Below are positions 3,247-27,997 of a stretch of DNA of 28,848 nt, in pieces. The notes beneath the pieces are model-generated. The model saw nothing but the letters and a program-made list of their open reading frames with translations. It made no database searches and was not told the DNA's origin. How positions within the stretch are numbered: the stretch's first letter is position 1; every line of letters starts with the position of its first letter. The position numbers and the translations under genes were made by a program. Source of the stretch: Candidatus Melainabacteria bacterium (lineage in GTDB: Bacteria > Cyanobacteriota > Vampirovibrionia > Obscuribacterales > Obscuribacteraceae); contig PLXC01000141.1 in assembly GCA_003151275.1 (NCBI GenBank), positions 1 through 28,848 of the forward strand, read 5' to 3'.

Positions 3247-5070
3247 CTATTGCGGTTTCGCCGACGAACTCATGATCCGCGAAAGATTGCGATAAGCCTC
3301 GAGCAGAGTTTGATGATGGTCGAATGCAAGAGTGTTCGGATCCTTCAAAAGTTGTTCCACATCCCTTACTTGCAAGCCACCCAAATCGTCATTGGCTGAC
3401 AATCCAGAGAGAGCACTCTTGTTGCCAAACACTCCATATTGAAAGTCGATGACCCTATTTCTGGTATCACGATTTAATGCGTCACCGATGCGCACCAGTG
3501 TAGGCTCACCCATTTTCAAACCAGTTTCTTCCGACATCTCTCGAGCAGCAGTTTGGGAGGGTAACTCGACTGACTTGCCATTAATATCGAGAAATCCGCC
3601 GGGAAGAGCTTCTTTACCTTGTTCCGGCGCCACTTTTCTGATTCCCGTAAGAACCTTCAAGCGCTGATCGTCTCCTTTGAACATGAATGCGACAGTAGAC
3701 GTGTGGTCCGGCATCGGTTGATCGTAAACATATTCGCCGGGTACATTTTCCGTCAACGCCGGCTTTATATCCGCTATAGGCGCCGCAGCCGTGATTGCTC
3801 TGTCGGCCGGAACTATCTGCGCGCCTGCTGATGTGGCGATAGTCTGGCGCAGTTTCAGCGCTTCGGCTGGAGTTAGGTCTACAGAATAGGTCGTGTTTAC
3901 AGAATCCGAAGTCGTTACACCGGCAACTTGGAGTCTGTCTTTTGGAATATCGACATTTAACTTGCGAAGCGATGTCAGAGCTCCGTCCGCGAGGCTCTCT
4001 TTCGTAGCGTCGATGGTGGAACTTGGAAGAGTAATACTGCCATCGGTGCCTTGCAGAGCCACTCTGGAACCATCCGGAAGATGCACATCGACAGACACCA
4101 CATCTGGTGCCTTAGCAAATCTGTATACATATTGGAGTTTACCTTCTGGCGAAAGACGAACATCACCTTGCCAGGCCTGCAGCTCAGGCGTACCAGGGTT
4201 CGAAATCCACTTGTGGTCCGTACCTTGGCGAATCATGCGAGTTCCATTGGATAGCTCTACGCTGTCAATTTGAGATTGTCCATTCGCCAGCTGACGCACC
4301 GAAATCTTTGCCGGATCGCCACTAGCAGTAGAAACCGTTCTGGTCTCACTTTTGGGCGCGGCTTCGGTATTATGGCCCTGCGTTAATTTTTCAAAGCCGT
4401 AGGATAAGCCACCCATGATGGCACCGCCGGCTCCCCAGGATTCTCCATCCTGCAGCATTTGGCTACCAGTAGCCAGTCCACGTCCATGCGTCAATGAATC
4501 TATATTGGCGTGAACGACGCCGCCGCCGGCTCCCGATATGCCACCGCGGACGATGCTATTAAATAACGTTGATTCGCCGAGCTTTGTTGCCCCTAGCCCA
4601 GCAGAAATTCCATCCATTGCCGCAAAGCTTGCTGCCTGCGTAGCACCGTTGGCGAGACGATTCCACTGGCTTTCGCCCGGCTTGAGCGGTGTCAAAACTG
4701 AGCCTGATAAGAATCCAGTAAGCGCGCTATTGCCTAGCCGCGTTGATAGCGCCGTAGAGTCCGCGCCCAATACCGAAGATGTTAGCTTGCCGCTTAGCTT
4801 GGACAAGAGGACGAAGTCGAAGATTACGCCCGCTGTTTCTCCGGCTGACTGAGCAAATTTATTTGCTCCTGATGCCTTCGAATCCAATTGCACTAAATCT
4901 AGCGCTGGTAAATGTCCAAGGCTCACCAACTGACCTATCCCGTTAATAGGTCGCTCAATGCCTCCGTTTACAAAACCTTTGGCGAACTGGACGCCGAAGT
5001 CCACCACGTCCGAAGAAATTTCTTGGATGCCGCGCTCTGCTGATTTAATTCTGGCAATTGCCGAAACCAA
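3247..5070 (-). CDS. Large orphan protein with C-terminal Nudix hydrolase domain
   Basis: The last ~160 of 607 residues (about 446-600) form a Nudix domain, a family that hydrolyses nucleoside diphosphates linked to another moiety. The box is visible at about 491-518 as GGFLD...EL...REMSEETGL, with the metal-binding REXXEE intact and a short insertion between GGFLD and the first Glu. The N-terminal ~230 residues are Ala/Gly/Ser-rich with small hydrophobic helices (GISGAGGGVV, GGAIMGGLSYGFEKL), resembling effector-like or membrane-interacting regions. The middle (about 255-430) is beta-rich with short repeats such as LPDGSRVALQGTDG. No signal peptide is seen. TTG at 5070 was chosen because AAGGAG lies six bases upstream; an upstream in-frame TTG at 5085 has no such site. 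Substrate is unknown. An exported or polymorphic toxin-like role is speculative. Confidence 0.8.
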   Translation of the reverse strand: MVSAIARIKSAERGIQEISSDVVDFGVQFAKGFVNGGIERPINGIGQLVSLGHLPALDLVQLDSKASGANKFAQSAGETAGVIFDFVLLSKLSGKLTSSVLGADSTALSTRLGNSALTGFLSGSVLTPLKPGESQWNRLANGATQAASFAAMDGISAGLGATKLGESTLFNSIVRGGISGAGGGVVHANIDSLTHGRGLATGSQMLQDGESWGAGGAIMGGLSYGFEKLTQGHNTEAAPKSETRTVSTASGDPAKISVRQLANGQSQIDSVELSNGTRMIRQGTDHKWISNPGTPELQAWQGDVRLSPEGKLQYVYRFAKAPDVVSVDVHLPDGSRVALQGTDGSITLPSSTIDATKESLADGALTSLRKLNVDIPKDRLQVAGVTTSDSVNTTYSVDLTPAEALKLRQTIATSAGAQIVPADRAITAAAPIADIKPALTENVPGEYVYDQPMPDHTSTVAFMFKGDDQRLKVLTGIRKVAPEQGKEALPGGFLDINGKSVELPSQTAAREMSEETGLKMGEPTLVRIGDALNRDTRNRVIDFQYGVFGNKSALSGLSANDDLGGLQVRDVEQLLKDPNTLAFDHHQTLLEAYRNLSRIMSSSAKPQ

Positions 5071-5244
5071 ATGAAGCTCCTTCAAACCTATTCCGCCGAG
5101 TGTTCTTCTCTATACGGTTCGGAGGAGAAGCTGGACACGGAAAAGAACAATTAAAGTTCTTGCAGAGTACTAAACAAGGTGTGGTGTGGGCATGACAGGA
5201 TTCAATAAAGATGAGCCAAACTCCGCCCGCAAGAACCAAGTCAC

Positions 5245-5296: not shown

Positions 5297-5710
5297 TCAG
5301 TCTTTGGCTAGAAACAATGCCGGTGATACTTTGAAGTATTCAGCAAGTCGGAAAGCAGCGCGTTTGCTCAGACCTCTGTGTCCACCGAGGAATGCCGACA
5401 AATTCGATTTGTGGCCAACACAGTCGACAATGTCGGACTGTACTAGTCCATTAATTTCCAGAAGATATGCGAGCGCTTCCTGTGGCGCCAGCTTCGATGC
5501 CGGCTGCGGAATGCGTGATTCATACCGGGCGATGAGATCACCTAACACAGATAAATAATCAGCTTCACCGCTAGTCAGATTCCGACTATTGATAGCAAGT
5601 TTTTTCATGAGCTTAACTGCTTCTTCAAATTCTGACTTGGCGCGCAAAGGCACCAGTGGAAACTCGCTTACAAGCTGCATGTATGCTTTATCAACTCTTC
5701 CTACATTCAT
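5297..5710 (-). CDS. higA: HigA-type antitoxin with XRE helix-turn-helix
   Basis: The protein (137 residues) is the likely antitoxin of a type II toxin-antitoxin pair; it would bind and neutralise the HigB toxin and repress their shared promoter. The C-terminal half (about residues 80-137) is a Cro/C1-like helix-turn-helix ending in the HigA pattern: LLEINGLVQSDIVDCVG, then LSAFLGGHRGLSKRAAFRLA and FKVSPALFL. The N-terminal half is helical and probably contacts the toxin. ATG at 5710 overlaps the toxin stop by four bases (ATGA) and has AGGTGG just upstream, so translation is coupled. GTG at 5719 is a less likely start. The toxin-first order is typical of higBA. Confidence 0.88.
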   Translation of the reverse strand: MNVGRVDKAYMQLVSEFPLVPLRAKSEFEEAVKLMKKLAINSRNLTSGEADYLSVLGDLIARYESRIPQPASKLAPQEALAYLLEINGLVQSDIVDCVGHKSNLSAFLGGHRGLSKRAAFRLAEYFKVSPALFLAKD

Positions 5711-5997
5711 GCTTTCCACCTGTCATATTCTGAATGCGTCATTACCTGCAATACGAAAACGCGCTGAGCAAAGTAATCGATAAAGCTGACGAGCCGATAA
5801 TTGTTTCCACCGACGTTAAAAACAACTTGCTCTTTGACGTAATCTGCACTTCGAAATGTCTGACGTACTTCCGCAAAAGTCTTCCAGCCTGCAGCCTTGG
5901 TCACGGCAATCCAGCTTGTTATCGGTTTGCGGGCACTCGAGTGTCTACTTGCAAAATCATGCAATTCACTCATATTTATTATTTCCAACTCAAACAT
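5707..5997 (-). CDS. higB: HigB-type mRNA interferase toxin
   Basis: This 96-residue protein matches the HigB branch of the RelE superfamily, which cleaves mRNA on the ribosome when freed from its antitoxin. Visible family features are the N-terminal strand/helix (ELEII..., then HDFASRHSSARKPITSW), the block AGWKTFAEVRQTFRSADYV, the core strand FNVGGNNYRLVSFIDY, and the end VFVLQVMTHSEYDRW. Length fits the family. ATG at 5997 lines up with the usual HigB N-terminus; AAGGG directly precedes it, at closer than ideal spacing. The gene overlaps higA by four bases, and a 17-bp palindrome upstream is a likely operator. Confidence 0.9.
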   Translation of the reverse strand: MFELEIINMSELHDFASRHSSARKPITSWIAVTKAAGWKTFAEVRQTFRSADYVKEQVVFNVGGNNYRLVSFIDYFAQRVFVLQVMTHSEYDRWKA

Positions 5998-6049: not shown

Positions 6050-7234
6050 CTATAGGTTTGCAACGTTAAGGTTTGGACCTCTGAGCTTGAACGGTCCAAG
6101 ACTCCAATCAAGTTCCGCCTTTAACACCAACGCCATAAACTCGGATGTCGAGACATTATGGAAATCAGCGATGACCTTGTATTCACTCCAGGTTAGCGAC
6201 GTCGATTTGAGTCGATCAAGAATTTCCGTTGCAAATTGCACATTCACTGTGCAATTTTGCATTTGCTGTATGGTATGTCTGCCGTCAGTAATCAGGACAC
6301 CCCACCCTCTTTCCGCGCAATACTTACTCAAAGATTTCCACTTCAATCGATTCACTCTCAGTGGCATAAGAAAAGTTGGTTTAATTTCGACGACCACGTG
6401 TCGATGCTCTCTTAGCTCCACGAGAACATCGGGATAATAAGTACGTTCGTATCCATCCAACCGGTATGCAATCCCGAACGGTTGCTCTTGATACCAAATC
6501 ACATCTTCAACCTGCTCTAATTGAGCATAAAACCGCAACTCAAGCTTCGATTCATACTGCACATTTCTCTGCAATTTCTTGCTGTAAAATACGCCTGAAT
6601 TATCTCTATCCTCAAAAACATTCCGAGCGCGTCCGCCACCAACCGGCTCGCTAGCTAAAACCTGACTGTGAGCGTCAGTCCACATAATGTACTGAGATAA
6701 GTTTTGAAATCTTTCGGAAACGAGTAGACTTCGTGTTTTCTCTTTTTGCTCAAAGGCTTTCAATCGGCGAGTATCTCTGGCGCAGGATCTTGCGCGCGAA
6801 ACGAGTTCCTGGGCAAGTCGCATTGGAAAAGCTAAAGATGCGATAAGTGGAATTGCATGGGTACTTATTGGTAGATGTTTGAGTGAATCCTCACAGAAAT
6901 CGACAAGCCGTGTCGCGCATCCTTCGTCATATGGCAATATGATTTGCTCAATATAAGCGATCAACTTGGCGCAGGAAGATTGCTCATTTACGAGTTTGAG
7001 TTGTCGCTTAGCCTTGAAATGTACGCGAGACAGACAGCGACAAAGAATTTGCCTTATGCGCTCTCGAGTAACATTGAATTGAATGCCCATCTCAGCGAGG
7101 GTGGGTGTGTCGCCGCTCATTAGTCCAAACCGAAGTTGAGCTATTTCCAAATCTCTACCACGTAGCGCTTCATCGAGAGCCGGTCCCAAATAGTGAAAGA
7201 AGAAATCACTGTGTCCCTGATCGACGTTCTCCAT
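6050..7234 (-). CDS. Sigma-70 region 4-like HTH fused to TnsA-like endonuclease
   Basis: Residues ~22-72 of 394 resemble sigma-70 region 4: a helix giving LEIAQLRFGLMSGDTPTLAE, then the recognition helix VTRERIRQILCRCLSRV. Residues ~72-220 are helical and unassigned. Residues ~225-340 look like a PD-(D/E)XK nuclease of the TnsA N-terminal type: ESKLELRFY (E232), WYQEQPFGI, YYPDVLVE (D269), VVVEIKP (E283, K285), then a lysine/tyrosine helix and WGVLITDG. TnsA cuts DNA during Tn7-like transposition, but no TnsB, TnsC or other transposition gene lies nearby. It may therefore be a stand-alone DNA-binding nuclease, for example in defence or element regulation; that is inference. ATG at 7234 was chosen for the GAGGG upstream and the start of domain-like sequence; the frame stays open to 7396. 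Its 3' end faces the higB promoter across 52 bases. Confidence 0.72.
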   Translation of the reverse strand: MENVDQGHSDFFFHYLGPALDEALRGRDLEIAQLRFGLMSGDTPTLAEMGIQFNVTRERIRQILCRCLSRVHFKAKRQLKLVNEQSSCAKLIAYIEQIILPYDEGCATRLVDFCEDSLKHLPISTHAIPLIASLAFPMRLAQELVSRARSCARDTRRLKAFEQKEKTRSLLVSERFQNLSQYIMWTDAHSQVLASEPVGGGRARNVFEDRDNSGVFYSKKLQRNVQYESKLELRFYAQLEQVEDVIWYQEQPFGIAYRLDGYERTYYPDVLVELREHRHVVVEIKPTFLMPLRVNRLKWKSLSKYCAERGWGVLITDGRHTIQQMQNCTVNVQFATEILDRLKSTSLTWSEYKVIADFHNVSTSEFMALVLKAELDWSLGPFKLRGPNLNVANL

Positions 7235-9174: not shown

Positions 9175-9338
9175 GGTTGCTTGATTTGGTTGGTTGTGAT
9201 GGTACAGATGACATTCTACGTCGAGATTGGTTCATTTACTGCATCGATGAAATCGGCCAAGGAGAATCCAAAACAAATGTTTAGCCTCTGTATCGGGCAT
9301 AAAAACTAGGAGGTTGGCACTCGTCAGGGAGAACGGCA

Positions 9339-9953
9339 ATGAGCGAATCTTGGGCAACGCTTACGAGCATGGCTGAGTCTGCAGCGCGTGGAGGGAAGTA
9401 TGACGAAGCCAAGGATTGTTATCGGCAGGCACTCGCTGATGCAGATTCTCGCCGCGACGTTCAAAACGCTTATTACACAAGGTGCAACTTTGCAGGACTG
9501 CTCAGACTTCTGGATGAATATGTGCAAGCGGAGCAGCTGCTGCGAGAAGCGACGCAATTGCGTCATGATTATCCGCAGCAACTTGCGCTCGAACCAGTAT
9601 CGCCTCTTACCGACCTGGAAAGAATTCTTGTAAAACAAAACAGATTGGCTGAACTGGAGCAGCTTCATCGTGCCGATGCTGAAAAGATGTTTGCCGTTTA
9701 CGGAAGGGATTCCCTCGAGTACAAGATGAGTTTGATGAATCTGGCGAAGACATATGGCACGCACTTTAAGGACATGGAAAGGTGCAAGTCCCTTTTTAGA
9801 GAAGTTCTCGACTGGTCACACACAGCGGAACCAATCACGCGCAAAATGATTTACATGAACTTTGACGGTGTCCTTCGTGCTGCCGGACTCACTGCTGAAG
9901 CGGACGCCGCACAACAAGAGCTGTCCACGCTGCAACAACGGGCCTCTTCATGA
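9339..9953 (+). CDS. Small TPR protein
   Basis: A 204-residue soluble protein made almost entirely of helical pairs of tetratricopeptide type, a scaffold for protein-protein contacts. Repeat-like units include AARGGKYDEAKDCYRQALAD (about 13-32), LLDEYVQAEQLLREATQLR, LAELEQLHRADAEKMFAVYG and KDMERCKSLFREVL. No signal peptide or catalytic domain is seen. ATG at 9339 has AGGGAG seven bases upstream. Partner unknown. Confidence 0.85.
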   Translation: MSESWATLTSMAESAARGGKYDEAKDCYRQALADADSRRDVQNAYYTRCNFAGLLRLLDEYVQAEQLLREATQLRHDYPQQLALEPVSPLTDLERILVKQNRLAELEQLHRADAEKMFAVYGRDSLEYKMSLMNLAKTYGTHFKDMERCKSLFREVLDWSHTAEPITRKMIYMNFDGVLRAAGLTAEADAAQQELSTLQQRASS

Positions 9954-10056
9954 TCTGGAGCCTCAGGCAAACTCAATTTGTCCTGACGGTCCACACTCAT
10001 CAAAACCGGCTCAGAATCTAGGTTTTGAATCAGAAGTCGATCAGGCGGAGGAATAA

Positions 10057-10131
10057 ATGAAGTTCGTCCAGAATATACTGTCAAGTCTTCTCAACAACAG
10101 GGCCCTGAGAGAACGACGAGATGAGCTTTAG
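10057..10131 (+). CDS. Possible 24-residue small protein
   Basis: A short frame, MKFVQNILSSLLNNRALRER plus RDEL, starts at an ATG with a near-ideal ribosome-binding site (GCGGAGG, about 5-7 bases upstream). The N-terminal half is amphipathic or hydrophobic (FVQNILSSLL) and the C-terminal half is basic and charged. It lies 103 bases after the TPR gene and 57 bases before the next membrane-protein gene, on the same strand. It may be a genuine small protein or a leader peptide of that gene. No homology is claimed. Confidence 0.4.
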   Translation: MKFVQNILSSLLNNRALRERRDEL

Positions 10132-10188
10132 GCTTAGTTCTTTTGGTAAGTCGTGGAATCCCTTTAGCACGAACATGAGGGAGTAAAG

Positions 10189-10830
10189 ATGTACAAGGAA
10201 CCTGGGGATGACCTTAAGCAGGAAGAAGTGGAGCTAAATGCTAGTTCGTCTGTCGAAGACAAAGCTGAACTGCCGGCTGCGGTGGCGGCTTCAAATACTG
10301 CCTCCGGAGAACATGTGAGCGCAGAGATCAAGAAAGTAGACGATAAGAACACTGACGGTAAGAGGGAAAACGAAAAGCTGCGCACTAAGCGCCAGTTTAA
10401 TCTAATTGTGAAAGTCGGATCTGTGCTTGTGGTTCTATGTGTGTGTTTTGCGATGACCGCTACTTTTTTATTCGGGCTAAGAACTGCCACGCAATTGGTG
10501 CCAGTCTTTTTTGAATCTCCAGCCGTCAACAACATGGAGAATTTGAGCGGTTATGGTTGGAATTTTTTTCAAGGAGGCCAGGATCAAATTCGATTCAAGA
10601 CCAGTAGACCGGTAACATTGATAGACGCTGAAAAGTATAGAAAATTCGGACTAAAAGACCGTAAATTTATGGAGGCATACCATTCCGTCGTAGATCTCTT
10701 CCCTGTAGATCGAACGAATATGGAGGACCACTTGGGGCAAATAGAAGTTCTTTTCTGGTATGACCGGGGCCGGACGTTAGTTCACGATAAAACCACCGAT
10801 CTGTATTTATTTTGCTGCGAGCATGGATAG
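10189..10830 (+). CDS. Single-pass membrane protein of unknown function
   Basis: A 213-residue protein. Residues 1-67 are hydrophilic, rich in Glu/Lys/Ala, and end in a basic stretch (KLRTKRQ), so this part is probably cytoplasmic. One transmembrane helix covers about residues 74-98. The remaining ~115 residues would be extracytoplasmic and contain YGWNFFQGGQDQIRFKTSRP and a C-terminal LYLFCCEHG with two adjacent cysteines. I do not recognise a domain. ATG at 10189 has GGGAG six bases upstream. A small hairpin follows at 10863. Confidence 0.75.
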   Translation: MYKEPGDDLKQEEVELNASSSVEDKAELPAAVAASNTASGEHVSAEIKKVDDKNTDGKRENEKLRTKRQFNLIVKVGSVLVVLCVCFAMTATFLFGLRTATQLVPVFFESPAVNNMENLSGYGWNFFQGGQDQIRFKTSRPVTLIDAEKYRKFGLKDRKFMEAYHSVVDLFPVDRTNMEDHLGQIEVLFWYDRGRTLVHDKTTDLYLFCCEHG

Positions 10831-10862
10831 GTAGTGTCGTGCGCCCGCCTGGATCTTGTGAA

Positions 10863-10888
10863 TAAGGCTTCAGCCCCTTACGATTTTT
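10863..10888 (+). terminator. Possible intrinsic terminator
   Basis: TAAGGCT-tc-AGCCCCTTA forms a short stem with a two-base bulge, followed by CGATTTTT. It sits 32 bases after the stop of the membrane-protein gene, in a convergent spacer. Confidence 0.4.
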
Positions 10889-10993
10889 CGAACACATTGA
10901 ATTCGCCTGGAAATCGCAACACCTATTGATACTACCAATGGTATCGGTTACCTTTTATTGATTTCTAAATCCTTCTTTGATGATTGACTTAGT

Positions 10994-11554
10994 CTAGTTG
11001 GGTTTTGTTGCTTTGCTGGTTTTGATGATTAGGGCGATTTTGTCAGCAGTGAGCGGGTCTTCTTTCGCGTCAGCGTATCCTTGCCAGCGTACGATGCCGT
11101 CAGCGGAAATGACTAAAACCTGCGGAATTCCTTTCACGCCGACAGCATTGTACATCCTTTTGTCTGGTGCCGAGGCCACGCTGAAGTCAACTGTATTGTC
11201 CTTCAAAAATTTCTTGACGACTTTTCCTGATTCGTCGGTAATTCCGATGATTACTAAATCATCGCCGAATTTCTGCTTGAACTGGTTTAGCTCAGGAGTC
11301 AGCCTGCGGCAATCAGGGCACCATGTCGCCCAGAAATCCAGTATTACGACTTTTCCTTTCGTATGCGGAGCGGGACCGTTCAGCCACTTAGCTACGTGTA
11401 ACGCAGGAGCTTTTTTGCCGCGTAGATCATTTGTCGCATGAATCTTTTTGTCCATTACATAAGGCGGATAGCCTGGATCTTGGTCCGCTGCAAGAGCTGC
11501 AACGCCTGGATCTAGCAGTGTGAGGAATGCGCACAACGCAAGCAGAGCTTTCAT
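10994..11554 (-). CDS. Secreted TlpA-like thioredoxin
   Basis: A thiol-disulfide oxidoreductase of the TlpA/ResA/redoxin group (186 residues), acting outside the cytoplasmic membrane. An N-terminal signal peptide of about 22 residues ends near ALAAD. The thioredoxin fold shows VVILDFWATWCPDCRRLTPE with active-site cysteines C79 and C82, followed by LVIIGITDES and the cis-proline loop GVKGIPQVLVI (P144). The CPDC pair differs from thioredoxin's CGPC and suits a more specialised redox partner. Such proteins commonly reduce disulfides during cytochrome c maturation or envelope protein folding; the client here is unknown. ATG at 11554 has AGGAAG seven bases upstream. It is flanked by unrelated genes and is probably monocistronic. 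Confidence 0.92.
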   Translation of the reverse strand: MKALLALCAFLTLLDPGVAALAADQDPGYPPYVMDKKIHATNDLRGKKAPALHVAKWLNGPAPHTKGKVVILDFWATWCPDCRRLTPELNQFKQKFGDDLVIIGITDESGKVVKKFLKDNTVDFSVASAPDKRMYNAVGVKGIPQVLVISADGIVRWQGYADAKEDPLTADKIALIIKTSKATKPN

Positions 11555-12600: not shown

Positions 12601-14175
12601 TCAGCGCGACGAGTTACAGATGGCAATCGAATCCTCAGGCAATGTTGGTTTGAGCTGGGTCCAATCGTTAGCAAACGGATGAAATATGAGGTTGCGCCCA
12701 TCCAGATCGATCTTCAAGGCTTCTCCGGCACCTTTAATTGGTTTGGAAGAAAGCAATTTGTAGCTAAGTTCGGGAAGCGGTCGATTGGTCATCTTAACTA
12801 AAGCATCGGAAAGCGGAATCATCGATTCGTCGATCAGTATTGTGGCGACAAAGGGGAACTTAGGAGAAATTGTGGTGAGAACAAGGCCTCTTATCTGCTT
12901 GAATGAGTTGATTATGATTGACCGTTTGCACGCACAGTTCAGTCCTTTGATAGCAAACTGTGCTTTGGTCAATTCCACCTGACCAAAATTTGGCAGAGTG
13001 CTTGGCAAATTGGAATGATGATCGGTACTAGCGATTTGCACGGGTTTCATTTTTGAAAGCAAATAGCCTGGCAGCTGATCCTGCACGTCAGCAGCGTTTG
13101 CTTTGCTAAGTTCTTGCACAAGTTCGTCAGCCTTGCCTTGCTCAGCAAGAACGCTAGCCAGTCCAAGACAATATATGGGTGGGCTAGCGTTTAATTTAAT
13201 GGCTTGCCTATAAGCCAGTTCCGCAGTGTTTAACCAAGCACCATATTTGGTGCGATCGTAAGCGACAAACCTTGCCTTGTCGTCCAATATCTGCGCAAGT
13301 CGAAAGAACGTTCCTGAATCATCGCTTTTATCAAGATTGCGCACGGCAGCAACCAAAATTTCCTGAGATGCTTCCGGCTTCAGCACAGATAGCGTCAATG
13401 CTGCTTGAACATAGATCTGCGCATCAGTGGGCTTGTTTTCCGAAATGACTTGATGCATCAATTCGTCTGCATGCTTCACGTCATTGTCGCGAATATAGGC
13501 CAAGAATAATTGAAAGAGTGCGGTCGATTTTTGTTCTGGAGTGTTCGCAAGTTTAACCGCGTTATTCGCCGTAATGGTCGCCAAATGGGGTTTGTCGAAA
13601 TAGAGAAGTGCTTGACCCAACTGGTATTGCCAGTCGAAGTCTGTTGACTTTCGAGACAACATCTCTTGCAAAATCAAAATGCTTTCATCGCGACGCCCCA
13701 TCAACATTAACGACTGTGCCTGTCCAATCCACGCTTTCCAATCGGAAGGATTCACATCTCTGCTTTTGGAAAAGCACACAAGCGCCGATTTTTGGTCACC
13801 CAGAGCTTGCTGCATAATTCCCAAGTTGACTAACGCGATTGAATTACGCGGCGCAAGTCTTGTCGCCATCCGGCCTTCGGCAAGAGCTTCTGGAGACTTC
13901 GAATCCTCAAACAGAAAATAGGAAAGAACCGCGTGAGGCAAGCACTTGCCTCTGTCCTGTTTCACAGCTTTCCGTTCCAAATCGATTGCTTGTTGAGTCT
14001 TCTTGTTCTCAAAAAGTTGAATCGCCTGTTTCGTCAGGTCATCTTCGTTGGACGTAACTTTGGCCATGCAACCGGTGGGGCTGCCTAACAGTAGACCCAC
14101 TAAGCATGCAAAAAAGAAGCAACGCAATTTCAACTGGTTACTGAGAAGCAGTTTGAAGCTGTTTTTGAGACCCAT
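12601..14175 (-). CDS. Exported TPR protein with C-terminal HMA-like domain
   Basis: A 524-residue protein from ATG 14175. Residues ~17-37 are a hydrophobic signal segment; LLLGSPTGC could be a poor lipobox. Residues ~45-370 are TPR-like helical repeats (ALAEGRMATRLAPRNSIALV, NLGIMQQALGDQKSALVCF, AELAYRQAIKLNASPPIYCL). Residues ~400-465 resemble a heavy-metal-associated fold: a strand (VELTKAQFAIKGLNCACKRS), helix, strand (FVATILIDES) and helix. The usual GMxCxxC is altered to GLNCAC, so metal binding is uncertain. The last ~55 residues (LSYKLLSS...FANDWTQLKPTLPEDS) recur as a fragment at 27418. Start is uncertain: the frame is open to 14298, and ATG 14238, inside the upstream gene, has GGAGG. 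From 14175 it lies 10 bases after the thaumatin-like gene and probably shares its operon. Confidence 0.78.
   Translation of the reverse strand: MGLKNSFKLLLSNQLKLRCFFFACLVGLLLGSPTGCMAKVTSNEDDLTKQAIQLFENKKTQQAIDLERKAVKQDRGKCLPHAVLSYFLFEDSKSPEALAEGRMATRLAPRNSIALVNLGIMQQALGDQKSALVCFSKSRDVNPSDWKAWIGQAQSLMLMGRRDESILILQEMLSRKSTDFDWQYQLGQALLYFDKPHLATITANNAVKLANTPEQKSTALFQLFLAYIRDNDVKHADELMHQVISENKPTDAQIYVQAALTLSVLKPEASQEILVAAVRNLDKSDDSGTFFRLAQILDDKARFVAYDRTKYGAWLNTAELAYRQAIKLNASPPIYCLGLASVLAEQGKADELVQELSKANAADVQDQLPGYLLSKMKPVQIASTDHHSNLPSTLPNFGQVELTKAQFAIKGLNCACKRSIIINSFKQIRGLVLTTISPKFPFVATILIDESMIPLSDALVKMTNRPLPELSYKLLSSKPIKGAGEALKIDLDGRNLIFHPFANDWTQLKPTLPEDSIAICNSSR
12627..12776. repeat. 150-bp duplicated segment, copy 1 (in the TPR-HMA gene)
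   Basis: This segment of the TPR-HMA gene matches 27418-27567 in the same orientation, with about 8 substitutions and no gaps over 150 bases (about 95% identity). Similarity stops sharply at both ends. This copy lies in the intact gene and encodes its C-terminal region. Confidence 0.9.
13238..13253. repeat. GCACC-type palindrome inside a coding region
   Basis: GCACCATATTTGGTGC resembles the dispersed intergenic palindromes but lies within the TPR-HMA gene, encoding part of RTKYGAWLN. It may be coincidence or a coding-region instance of the same target. Confidence 0.3.
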
Positions 14176-14185
14176 TTTGATGCCG

Positions 14186-15325
14186 TTACTGAGACCCACT
14201 TTGTATTTGTCCGAACGGATAGGCTTCCAGAGTGACATCAATGTCGCCTCCAAGAGGTGATGTTCCGCGCTGAATCTCACAAATTCCATAACCAACAAAT
14301 GGAATCGGTGGATTCGCGGCTATGTCATAAAGCTTCTTGTGATATTGAGGATCAAAGAATTTCGTGGCTGGAAGTGGTGGCACCCCTGGTGGCGGCGATT
14401 CGTAGGCAGTCAAAGCCGCATTGCGGTTCGCCGGTGCAACTGGGGGATTGGTATTGGCATTGTTGGGATAATAGTTGATTGCGTTGTCACATCCCACATC
14501 GAGACTGGGGTAAGTAAGTGGCGCGTTGTTGTCAGCTTGGAGGCAGCCCGATTTTTGTGTGCCGGGGGGAGACCCCGGAACCGTCAGATTTTGATAGCGC
14601 GAAGCGCAATTTGTGCAGCCATACGGATACACGCCAGGGTTTCCATAGTCGCCATAAAAGTTAGGAGTGGTGCCTGGGCTGTTACGTATTTGAGTTACAG
14701 GAATCAGTGCGCCTCCTGAAGTTTTGTAGGCACCGTTTTGCCACGCGCCCGGAACCTTCATTACCCACTGCGCATTGACGCCGTTAACTTCGCTGATGTC
14801 GACCGTGTCAAACGTGTTGTTTTTGACATTGAACTCGACGAAAGTTGCTCCAGATGGAACGGCAGCTGATGTCGATCCAAAGGTGAACGGATATGAGAAA
14901 CAACTATTGGAAAACCAGCAAGTAGACGGGTCCTGACCTTTCAAACTCGAGTCGACCGGGACCCACACAGCCAAATGAACTGGAGTTTGGGCATAGTTAG
15001 TTAGTTGCGCAGTCTGATTCGGTCCCAACATGAAATACCAAATCGCCGTATTTACTGGACCGTAGCAGTTCGGAGGGTTTCTTAGAGTGATTGGAACCTG
15101 GGTGGCTTTGTCGAGAACTGAGTTCGCATTGATGTTGCCCGTATAGTCTTGCAGCAGTATTACCTGCGTCTTGGGCAAACTTAGCGAATGGTGTATGTAG
15201 ATGTTGTTAGTGGAGGTGCTGCCGGTCCGATTTTGTGGTCTGGCAGAAGCATTCGGGGGCAGCGCGAAAGAGACTATAGTCATCGCCGCTGTCGCTGCAA
15301 CGGCAAACCATCTCAATGATCTCAT
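14186..15325 (-). CDS. Secreted thaumatin-like protein
   Basis: A 379-residue exported protein. The signal peptide runs from MRSLRWFAVAATAAMTIV to about NASA, with an Ala-x-Ala cleavage site near residue 28. The mature part is Asn/Pro/Thr/Gly-rich with paired cysteines (CWFSNSC, YGCTNCASRY, SGCLQ, VGCDN). The segment FVEFNVKNNTFDTVDISEVN followed by GVNA resembles the thaumatin-family core 'EFTL...DFYDVSLVDGFN', so I call a thaumatin-like fold. Members include plant PR-5 proteins and some bacterial proteins, often carbohydrate-binding or glucanase-like. Activity here is unknown. ATG at 15325 has GGAGG six bases upstream; an upstream ATG at 15349 is less likely. The TPR-HMA gene follows directly, which suggests joint expression in the envelope. 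Confidence 0.65.
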   Translation of the reverse strand: MRSLRWFAVAATAAMTIVSFALPPNASARPQNRTGSTSTNNIYIHHSLSLPKTQVILLQDYTGNINANSVLDKATQVPITLRNPPNCYGPVNTAIWYFMLGPNQTAQLTNYAQTPVHLAVWVPVDSSLKGQDPSTCWFSNSCFSYPFTFGSTSAAVPSGATFVEFNVKNNTFDTVDISEVNGVNAQWVMKVPGAWQNGAYKTSGGALIPVTQIRNSPGTTPNFYGDYGNPGVYPYGCTNCASRYQNLTVPGSPPGTQKSGCLQADNNAPLTYPSLDVGCDNAINYYPNNANTNPPVAPANRNAALTAYESPPPGVPPLPATKFFDPQYHKKLYDIAANPPIPFVGYGICEIQRGTSPLGGDIDVTLEAYPFGQIQSGSQ

Positions 15326-18199: not shown

Positions 18200-19152
18200 T
18201 TAGTCAGTCACCATGCCGCCCAAATCGGCAGTGGTCTGCTGGAGCTCTTTTAGCTTCAGTTGGTTAGCAGTGCCATGATTCATCAACCAGCTTCCAACTG
18301 CGTCGATTACAGGCGAACGCATGTGGGCGGTCTCTAACTGCAGGTGCCCAAAGTTCCCTCGCCATGCCAGATTTTGATCATCTGAAGGCATGCTGTTCAT
18401 CAATTCGGTTACATGCTTTGGAGAGACACAGCCATCGCGACTACCTTGAATTATCAACACGGGCAGATGTTTGTCCGTTGTCTTTCCCCAGCTAATTGTT
18501 TTGGCGACAAACTTGTCAGTGGACAGCAGCGCCTTTAGAGGCAGTTCCTGCAACACCATCGGATCATCCATAAGTCCTTGCCTGATTTGTCCCTTGCCTC
18601 GATACATAGCTTTATTGACTTTCACCGCCGGAGCCGACAGAACAATTCCGTTTACAAGCCCCGGATGTTCGCCAGCGAGCCGAACGCAAAAGGTACATCC
18701 CAAACTCCGCCAAGGGCGAGCAGGCGCAGATTAGGATACTTTGCCTTAATTAGCTCAGCCAGTTTGACTATGTCCTGATAACTCTTTTCGTGATTTACCT
18801 TGGTTTTGTCATCTTCTGCTGTGCTGAATTGCTTTTTATCGTCAAAGTGGCATCGCCCAAAACCGCGCATATCAAGGGAGACAAAACCAATTCCGTTGAC
18901 AGCAAGGCTGCGCGCCAGAATTCTGAACCGTCGACCGTGAAGGGTGAGCCCATGAACTCCGAGAACAATGGCTTTCGGCGGACCGTCTACCGGCATCCAT
19001 TCATAGGTCGGCATATCGAGGGCTTTAGTGAAGGCACCATCTTCGGTGTATGAATACTTGGCCGCTAAACGTACTTTCTGATCTATGATCCAAGGCAAGC
19101 TTTGCGCGCCAAAGGTCGACCAGCCTATGAAAAGGTCAGGCAGTGGGTGCAA
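18200..19152 (-). pseudogene. Alpha/beta hydrolase frameshifted at the nucleophile elbow
   Basis: Two overlapping frames together make one lysophospholipase-type serine hydrolase of about 315 residues. The N-terminal frame (from TTG 19152) carries PKAIVLGVHGLTLHGRRF (oxyanion region) and FVSLDMRGFGRC. It then runs to KYPNLRLLALGG, after which the frame is lost. The second frame resumes as LGCTFCVRLAGEHPGLVNG, then IVLSAPA, and supplies the acid and base regions LIIQGSRDGCVSP (Asp) and NFGHLQLE (His). The junction, near 18704-18711, falls exactly at the expected G-x-S-x-G. One missing base (for instance GGCGGGAGT shortened to GGCGGAGT) explains it. All other hallmarks are intact, so the mutation is recent or a sequencing error. 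The substrate would have been a lipid or small ester. Confidence 0.85.
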
Positions 19153-27210: not shown

Positions 27211-27997
27211 GCACGTAATTTTAAAGCTAATGTATCCCCCAGTCTAATTTGCCCTAGTCAAGCAGCTTTAAGTGAACCTCATACTCGCATAGAACTTAGA
27301 ACTACTCGGAAAACTTTCCACCCGACCTGCCAGCGAAACCTAACTTGTCGTATCGCAAACAAGGATGGATCAGCTGGGATGAGTTTCTTGGTGTTACTCC
27401 AGAGGACAGGAGACGGTTCGAATCCTCAGGCAATGTTGGTTTGAGCTGGGTCCAGTCGTTAGCAAACGGACGAAATATGAGGTTGTGCCCATCCAGATCG
27501 ATCCTCAAGGCTTCTCCGGCATCCCTAATTGGTTTGGAAGATAGCAATTTGTAGCTAAGTTCGGGAATCCTTGGAATAATGTTAGTGGTGGCAAGTGCAC
27601 ACTACTGTCAACTTATTATTAGTGCCCAACGAGTTCAACGGCCGCAGTAAGCGCCTCGTCATCGGTCATCTCATAACATTGAATCTGACATGGCTCGGGC
27701 GCTTGACCCATAGACGTGACCCGCATAACAACAACTACTAAACACCCACAGAAGCAGAACAACTTGAGAGTTGTGCTTTATATGCAACGGGAAATCAATC
27801 ACCCAAAGCGGTAGCACCTGTGGTGCAAAAGCAACACCTGATAAAGCTGAAGCCAGTAGCTCTTCCGCCGTATCGACAAACAGGAATCCGCAATTACTGA
27901 TCGTCGAAGCGCCGGTTAATATGGAACAAGGGTATAAATACATCCGAGGGCCAGAGAGCAGGCTGAGCGCATCCAGGAGTACAGAAGATCCCATATT
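27211..27997. other. 787-bp spacer between acyltransferase and kinase
   Basis: The gap holds the 150-bp gene fragment (27418-27567), a GCACC-tgt-GGTGC hairpin at 27814-27826, and the motif ATTAGTGCCCAAC near 27618, similar to sequence flanking the dispersed palindromes. Short frames exist, including a hydrophobic minus-strand frame at 27671-27994, but none has a ribosome-binding site or recognisable motif. The kinase promoter should lie at its right end. Confidence 0.55.
27418..27567. repeat. 150-bp duplicated segment, copy 2 (gene fragment)
   Basis: This is an isolated copy of the 3' coding part of the TPR-HMA gene (12627-12776). On the minus strand it still encodes PELSYKLLSSKPIRDAGEAL followed by the DWTQLKPTLPEDS segment, with about five amino-acid changes, and then runs into unrelated sequence. 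There is no start signal and no upstream gene body. It is a gene fragment left by duplication or recombination. Confidence 0.88.

Follow-up and report, generated by a model that had tools for sequence, protein, structure and literature searches.

Relation to Described Systems

Each half of the protein described here is already known from other systems. The protein is encoded in a 28,848-nucleotide stretch of DNA from Candidatus Melainabacteria bacterium, and this whole stretch is called the window below. In the TnsA proteins of Tn7 and of the CRISPR-associated transposon PseCAST the N-terminal domain is a PD-(D/E)XK nuclease. Such a domain, including its catalytic residues, was also found in the window protein, but the latter has no detectable TnsB partner and carries a sigma region 4 reader, and the C-terminal family of TnsA was not recognized in it by Pfam (no match up to E 1). 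The region 4 of RpoD/SigA has the same fold as its N-terminal part, and the residues contacting the -35 element are, judged from the alignment, selectively kept. In contrast to RpoD/SigA, sigma regions 1–3 were not detected in the window protein (Pfam found region 4 only), the domain is fused to a nuclease and an internal replacement of the beta-flap tip is predicted.

Further similarities concern one half at a time. The available part of PMC7824862 describes the T4 gp4-type head-completion nuclease as TnsA-like, and the window protein has this domain in common with it (PHROG 218 match at 1.5e-12, together with viral fold matches). However, T4 gp4 is a virion protein, whereas the 50,697 phage records searched gave 28 partial matches to the window protein and none over at least 80% of the query; in IMG/VR, the best among the matches listed was to region 4. 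From the known anti-phage systems in PADLOC only MzaA (MZA defence system) matched the window protein, over 55 residues of region 4. In the NCBIfam search the region-4-like C-terminus of MzaA matched at 8.3e-12, but at residues 24–79 only and with a score of 44.7 bits where the cut-off is 800, and the protein is not a full-length MzaA. A SIGMA-HTH-like domain is likewise reported, in the available part of PMC12839542, for BrxL, a defence protein of BREX, which is a different enzyme; this likeness follows from the description and not from sequence comparison. Finally, in the winged-helix-fused restriction endonucleases (available part of PMC11037411) a nuclease is aimed by a fused DNA-binding domain, but the reader is different, that of the window protein coming from the promoter-recognition machinery. 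Of the titles and abstract openings listed by the literature search, outside subscription papers and preprints, none describes the joining of the two halves, their existence apart from Tn7, the retention of the promoter code or the substitute predicted for the flap tip; searches for the gene on IncI plasmids were included.

Domain Organization of the Fusion Protein

The gene starts with an ATG at position 7234 of the window and encodes 394 amino acids plus a stop codon; its product is 100% identical to a database protein of the same length (P0001). The window averages 48.3% GC (s.d. 2.1% over sliding windows), so that the gene, with 45.4%, is not a GC outlier. The following features were assigned:

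6050..7234, minus strand: whole gene, sigma-region-4/TnsA-type nuclease fusion (ORF and translation)
6995..7213, minus strand: sigma region 4 domain, residues 8–80 (Pfam match at residues 25–71)
7049..7066, minus strand: recognition helix R57-E58-R59-I60-R61-Q62, equivalent to R584-Q589 of E. coli sigma70 (RpoD alignment and conservation counts)
6830..6868, minus strand: helix 123–135, predicted flap-tip replacement (inferred from alignment ranges)
6695..6823, minus strand: long helix 138–180 joining both halves (AlphaFold2 secondary structure)
6272..6646, minus strand: TnsA-type PD-(D/E)XK nuclease domain, residues 197–321
6539..6541, minus strand: codon of catalytic E232 (E in 43 of 43 rows)
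6428..6430, minus strand: codon of catalytic D269 (D in 43 of 43 rows)
6380..6388, minus strand: codons of E283-x-K285, PD-(D/E)XK motif (E and K in 43 of 43 rows)
6071..6271, minus strand: helical domain at the C-terminus that includes a wing of two strands, residues 322–388 (AlphaFold2 secondary structure)

In the protein a long helix thus connects a region 4 of primary-sigma fold with a TnsA-type nuclease in which the four catalytic residues are kept. Both Pfam domains (Sigma70_r4 at 25–71 and Tn7_TnsA-like_N at 244–312) exceeded their curated cut-offs. The two halves were found again by NCBIfam, the top matches being to region 4 of MzaA and RpoD-type factors and to an actinobacterial TnsA-like family, all of them far under the family cut-offs. 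The AlphaFold2 model was confident (pLDDT 92.3), and together with the profiles it bore out the proposal of an earlier note on this DNA that the N-terminus is a sigma-70 region 4; this can now be refined to a region 4 of the primary-sigma type in which most of the -35-reading residues are retained.

The same note had read the C-terminal half as a TnsA-type nuclease with E232, D269 and E283-x-K285, and this reading held both by sequence and by fold: a failure of this half to match TnsA/PD-(D/E)XK folds was checked for and did not occur. All four residues were identical in the 43 aligned rows, E232 aligning with a glutamate of PseCAST TnsA, and the positions invariant in this alignment included R204, S218, K220, E228, S229, Q251, P268, K298, G310 and G312. 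The case for a nuclease is strong, and the protein is probably a DNA nuclease, as predicted from these features. The TnsA fold alignment ended at residue 321, and the modelled C-terminus was winged-helix-like by secondary structure; the fold-search lists did not assign the last 70 residues to any known fold, although one may still exist.

Retention of the -35-Reading Residues

The available part of PMC4943231 gives 16 positions through which region 4 of E. coli touches the -35 box. In the 55 members counted, these positions matched E. coli RpoD in 66% of the cells, compared to 28% for the other region-4 positions, and only 3 of 20,000 random 16-position sets equalled this retention. The residues reported to touch the -35 element are therefore selectively retained. 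This count supersedes an earlier one (68% versus 28% in 51 members), from which P0038, P0040 and P0042 had been excluded for having no annotated region 4 and which also lacked L003 and L007; the four members added were L003, L007, L215 and L216. L002, L005 and L015, whose examined portions contain no such domain, are absent from every region-4 count. Among the 77 sigma factors from the same protein search the values were 82% versus 55%, reached by 285 of 20,000 random sets, these factors being a non-neutral control, as they were themselves retrieved by similarity to the query.

In the recognition helix the equivalents of R584, E585, R586, R588 and Q589 were kept in 48, 52, 54, 52 and 54 of the 55 members, respectively, and all five were present in the window protein and in 47 of the 55 members. 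Elsewhere among the listed contacts, D570 and Y571 were not kept and E574 and E575 partly. Eight members had at least one of the five residues altered, five of them at R584 only; the larger changes were found in L003 (all five), L216 (three) and L007 (two). Because of these eight members, three of which have changes beyond R584, reading of the -35 element would not be universal in the family. On the whole, -35-type recognition by region 4 is fairly probable and is held with moderate confidence.

The models further suggest how the domain may be held in place. In a sigma4/beta-flap-tip chimera (7kug_D), 95 of 96 residues aligned to residues 8–136 of the window model, and the chimera again aligned over 95 of 96 residues to a second model, that of a Serratia grimesii member with 27% identity. 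These alignment ranges, on which the claim is based, suggest that the internal helix 123–135 takes the place of the RNA polymerase beta-flap tip on region 4; between the chimera and free sigma chains the Z differences were below 1, which are ties by the tool's own note.

Two members, P0023 (at 1.8e-14) and P0030, carry an N-terminal RNA polymerase alpha-CTD in front of sigma region 4. Both kept R265, N268, C269, G296 and E302 of E. coli alpha and had K298 and S299 changed, residues which we take to be DNA-binding. An extra N-terminal three-helix domain of about 60 residues precedes region 4 in L004, L006, L008, L011, L161 and the Streptomyces homologues. It looks Myb/SANT-like by eye; the three forms scanned gave no convincing Pfam match, and the fold lists named no known fold for the enterobacterial form, for which one may still exist.

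Distribution of the Family

The search of about 5.8 billion proteins produced 130 matches, the first 43 of which, including the window protein, were taken as the family; the other 77 among the 120 matches listed had sigma-factor domains. Both Pfam domains were present in 39 of the 43 members, P0038, P0040 and P0042 having the nuclease only and P0043 a nuclease score under the cut-off. A single-protein search of genome contigs found no relatives, and an alignment-based search found 104, the best 80 of which were retained, most of them from about L014 onward matching region 4 only. The first 13 contig loci included an uncultured cyanobacterium, a Melainabacteria bin, Obscuribacterales, Methylococcales, Serratia, Buttiauxella, Yersinia and Streptomyces, with L002 and L005 matching across the nuclease half only. 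Cyanobacterial, gammaproteobacterial and actinobacterial DNA thus all contain homologues, as do plasmids of E. coli.

In the phylum search the whole-length alignment was swamped by sigma factors, and a nuclease-only alignment was then used on other groups. Strong members (E below 1e-40) were found in 1 of 77 genomes in the class of G003, 1 of 119 in the order of G004 and 4 of 81 in the genus of G009, including the central genomes and earlier finds, and are thus rare and sporadic in these groups. Weaker matches occurred in 3, 20 and 23 further genomes, respectively, mostly as short TnsA-sized frames. Separately, the Obscuribacterales locus L005 encodes at 9791–10627 (plus strand) a family nuclease without sigma region 4, and a second nuclease-only match was present in the same genome; other short TnsA-like ORFs of weak similarity (open frames of 217–259 aa) were seen in Enterobacterales (L207–L213).

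Plasmid Copies and the Proposed Function

Among 72,556 plasmid records 392 matched, 266 of them over at least 80% of the query; 224 matches were from Escherichia and 53 from Shigella, with a Mycobacteroides plasmid ranking at the top. The gene was found in 256 of 5,426 complete E. coli genomes at 261 places, all on plasmids and none chromosomal, and, among the rows listed, was mostly annotated just as a TnsA-domain protein. The copies spanned at least 80% of the gene in 207 of the 256 genomes and less in 49, and because of these 49 the gene is presumably dispensable or costly. Among the rows listed, some shortened copies retain only both ends of the gene or only its first 307 bases.

On a conjugative plasmid typed IncI1/B/O (L161) the gene is located between excA and a hok/gef-type gene, within the transfer region. 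Two IncK2/Z plasmids without the gene have other DNA in this interval, the homology with L161 stopping near 11365 and restarting at 13207. According to the available part of PMC8004404, the fertility-inhibition gene finQ is inserted between trbA and pndA in IncI1 plasmids and, therefore, this plasmid neighbourhood would take up genes of inter-plasmid competition. The nuclease gene of the S. marcescens locus L011 is followed by an HNH_2 restriction-like gene and, farther on, by that of a large NTPase whose N-terminus weakly resembles restriction proteins. The cyanobacterial copy (L001) is probably plasmid-borne, as suggested by two DUF3854 proteins at this locus, one of them fused to a helicase.

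We tentatively propose, with a confidence slightly short of even, that the protein is an endonuclease which acts alone, has spread horizontally and is aimed by a module borrowed from promoter recognition. Region 4 would bind promoter DNA of the -35-like (TTGACA) type with no need of RNA polymerase, since the built-in helix would replace the beta-flap tip that normally holds it, and in two members the added alpha-CTD would read a neighbouring UP element. Such binding would put the metal-dependent nuclease on nearby DNA, resulting in a nick or a cut. The role, as the least certain step, may be in inter-element conflict, in which phage or plasmid DNA entering the cell would be restricted or one plasmid would compete against another; this part of the reading is weak and evenly poised between true and false. 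Host promoters would be spared by some control, such as occupancy, low resting activity or a trigger. The altered recognition helices of some members, the L005 nuclease lacking region 4, the shortened plasmid copies, the lack of a recurring defence partner and the PADLOC match confined to MzaA count against this proposal. The earlier note had suggested a solitary defence or element-control nuclease: the gene did prove solitary, and a role in defence or control is plausible from the plasmid copies, the cyanobacterial copy and the HNH gene of S. marcescens.

A stand-alone copy of the upstream promoter-recognition unit of RNA polymerase, made up of sigma region 4, its own flap-tip substitute and in some members an alpha-CTD, serving as the targeting head of a nuclease, in a restriction-like system that targets the promoter itself, is a possible yet doubtful extension. 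If the -35 reading is true, DNA would be targeted via the promoter itself, which is hard for phages and plasmids to lose, and invaders relying on the host housekeeping polymerase could not easily give up the target. This would offer a testable function for the gene on the E. coli plasmids and raises the question how the host avoids cuts at its own promoters. The family also means that TnsA-type nucleases exist outside transposons with a reader of their own.

Horizontal Transfer and a Possible Homing Activity

In Enterobacterales the synonymous divergence (dS) of the gene differed from that of rpoD: 0.14 versus 0.98 between S. grimesii and Y. frederiksenii, 0.23 versus 0.64 between S. grimesii and Buttiauxella, but 2.17 versus 0.83 between S. 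grimesii and S. marcescens. The homology of the S. grimesii and Y. frederiksenii loci was confined to 9249–11310 of L004 (about 2.06 kb), and a similar left end was present in three genomes (unit at L004 9249–11310, L008 9229–11296 and L006 about 9338–11180). A single-gene unit of about 2 kb has therefore been horizontally transferred among Serratia, Yersinia and Buttiauxella. The gene is under purifying selection (dN/dS 0.15–0.35 in eight pairs).

A unit of this kind could also be a selfish homing-like gene whose nuclease cleaves DNA lacking the gene, at the insertion site or close by, and which repair then copies in, the site being given by sigma region 4 plus, in the enterobacterial and Streptomyces forms, the extra N-terminal domain. 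The single-gene unit of Serratia and Yersinia, with its similar left end in three chromosomal settings, the sporadic distribution of the family and the presence of one gene with no conserved partner would all fit. However, no convincing terminal repeats were found on the unit in L004 and L008, the flanks outside it look unrelated, a -35 element alone is too short and frequent to specify a homing site, and every E. coli copy is on a plasmid, which makes homing unlikely.

A tRNA-Asn gene was located about 3 kb (L004) and about 1 kb (L006) from the gene, and a tRNA-Pro gene 77 bp upstream of it in L010; none was found in the window or in the other 9 of the 12 loci. With tRNA near the gene in only 3 of these loci, integration at a tRNA gene is doubtful as a general rule.

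WhiB Neighbours and a Possible Regulatory Role

Another alternative to the promoter-aimed endonuclease is a transcription regulator or anti-promoter roadblock, in which region 4 would compete for -35 elements or for RNA polymerase and the nuclease fold would be seldom used or serve only for binding. It would agree with the retained -35 contacts, with the alpha-CTD of two members and with WhiB genes found near the nuclease on the Mycobacteroides plasmid (L162 9064–9765, plus strand, two genes upstream; Pfam 3.4e-9) and in Streptomyces (L010 4566–4970, minus strand, opposite to the strand of the nuclease gene and about 4.4 kb upstream of it; Pfam 9.1e-26), WhiB proteins binding sigma region 4 in structures matched by the model. 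However, a dead nuclease would not need the four catalytic residues, which are identical in all 43 rows. Of the 11 loci searched for WhiB, 9 gave no match at E 1 or better; the weak match in L010 was confirmed as WhiB, that of L008 covers 16 residues and is chance-like, and WhiB genes are common in Streptomyces. A regulator is accordingly given a still lower probability than homing. WhiB was rejected as a recurrent partner, being found only on the Mycobacteroides plasmid and in L010.

Gene Neighbourhood and Tn7 Partners

As stated in the earlier note, Tn7 partners are missing beside the gene. Two TnsB-like queries, both proteins from the host genomes, gave nothing better than E 0.33 in the 13 homologue loci, two plasmid loci and the window, the view being partial at short contigs, some of only 3–12 kb (L003 3.4 kb, L002 7.2 kb). 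The homologues are, therefore, not always placed beside tnsB/tnsC, the alternative that had been raised: the loci examined show no tnsB. A Mu-transpos_C (TnsB-family) match was absent from 9 of the 13 host genomes and present somewhere in four, for G003 and G009 on another contig; the PF09299 search matched none of 14 control genomes, its sensitivity for Tn7 being shown only by the four positive genomes. An orphan TnsA, left over from a Tn7-like transposon or accessory to one, might be suggested by the TnsA-like Pfam family and fold of the nuclease domain and by the four positive genomes; this reading was rejected because of the absences above and is nearly excluded, the family also keeping its own sigma domain across phyla.

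Across all ORFs of 16 homologue loci and the window no conserved partner was found. The recurring neighbours were only common paralogues (identified by eye as LysR, ABC transporter and response regulator types) and a chromosomal stretch common to Serratia and Buttiauxella. HigBA and the Nudix gene, which had been considered part of the system, were rejected as partners, since neither recurs in this set.

Several other genes of the window, all on the minus strand, are of note. A HigB toxin (Pfam 1.4e-27) with an HTH partner at 5297–5997 starts 52 bp downstream of the nuclease gene, and the pair matched the PADLOC PD-Lambda-2 A and B models (5.2e-24 and 2.2e-11). The 612-aa ORF at 3247–5085 has a C-terminal NUDIX domain preceded by about 450 residues without a convincing Pfam match. 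The serine hydrolase (Hydrolase_4) at 18200–19152 is split across two overlapping ORFs matching different parts of the profile, and a small ORF at 27302–27547 carries, judged from the translations, a second copy of the C-terminus of the TPR protein encoded at 12601–14298, a partial duplication.
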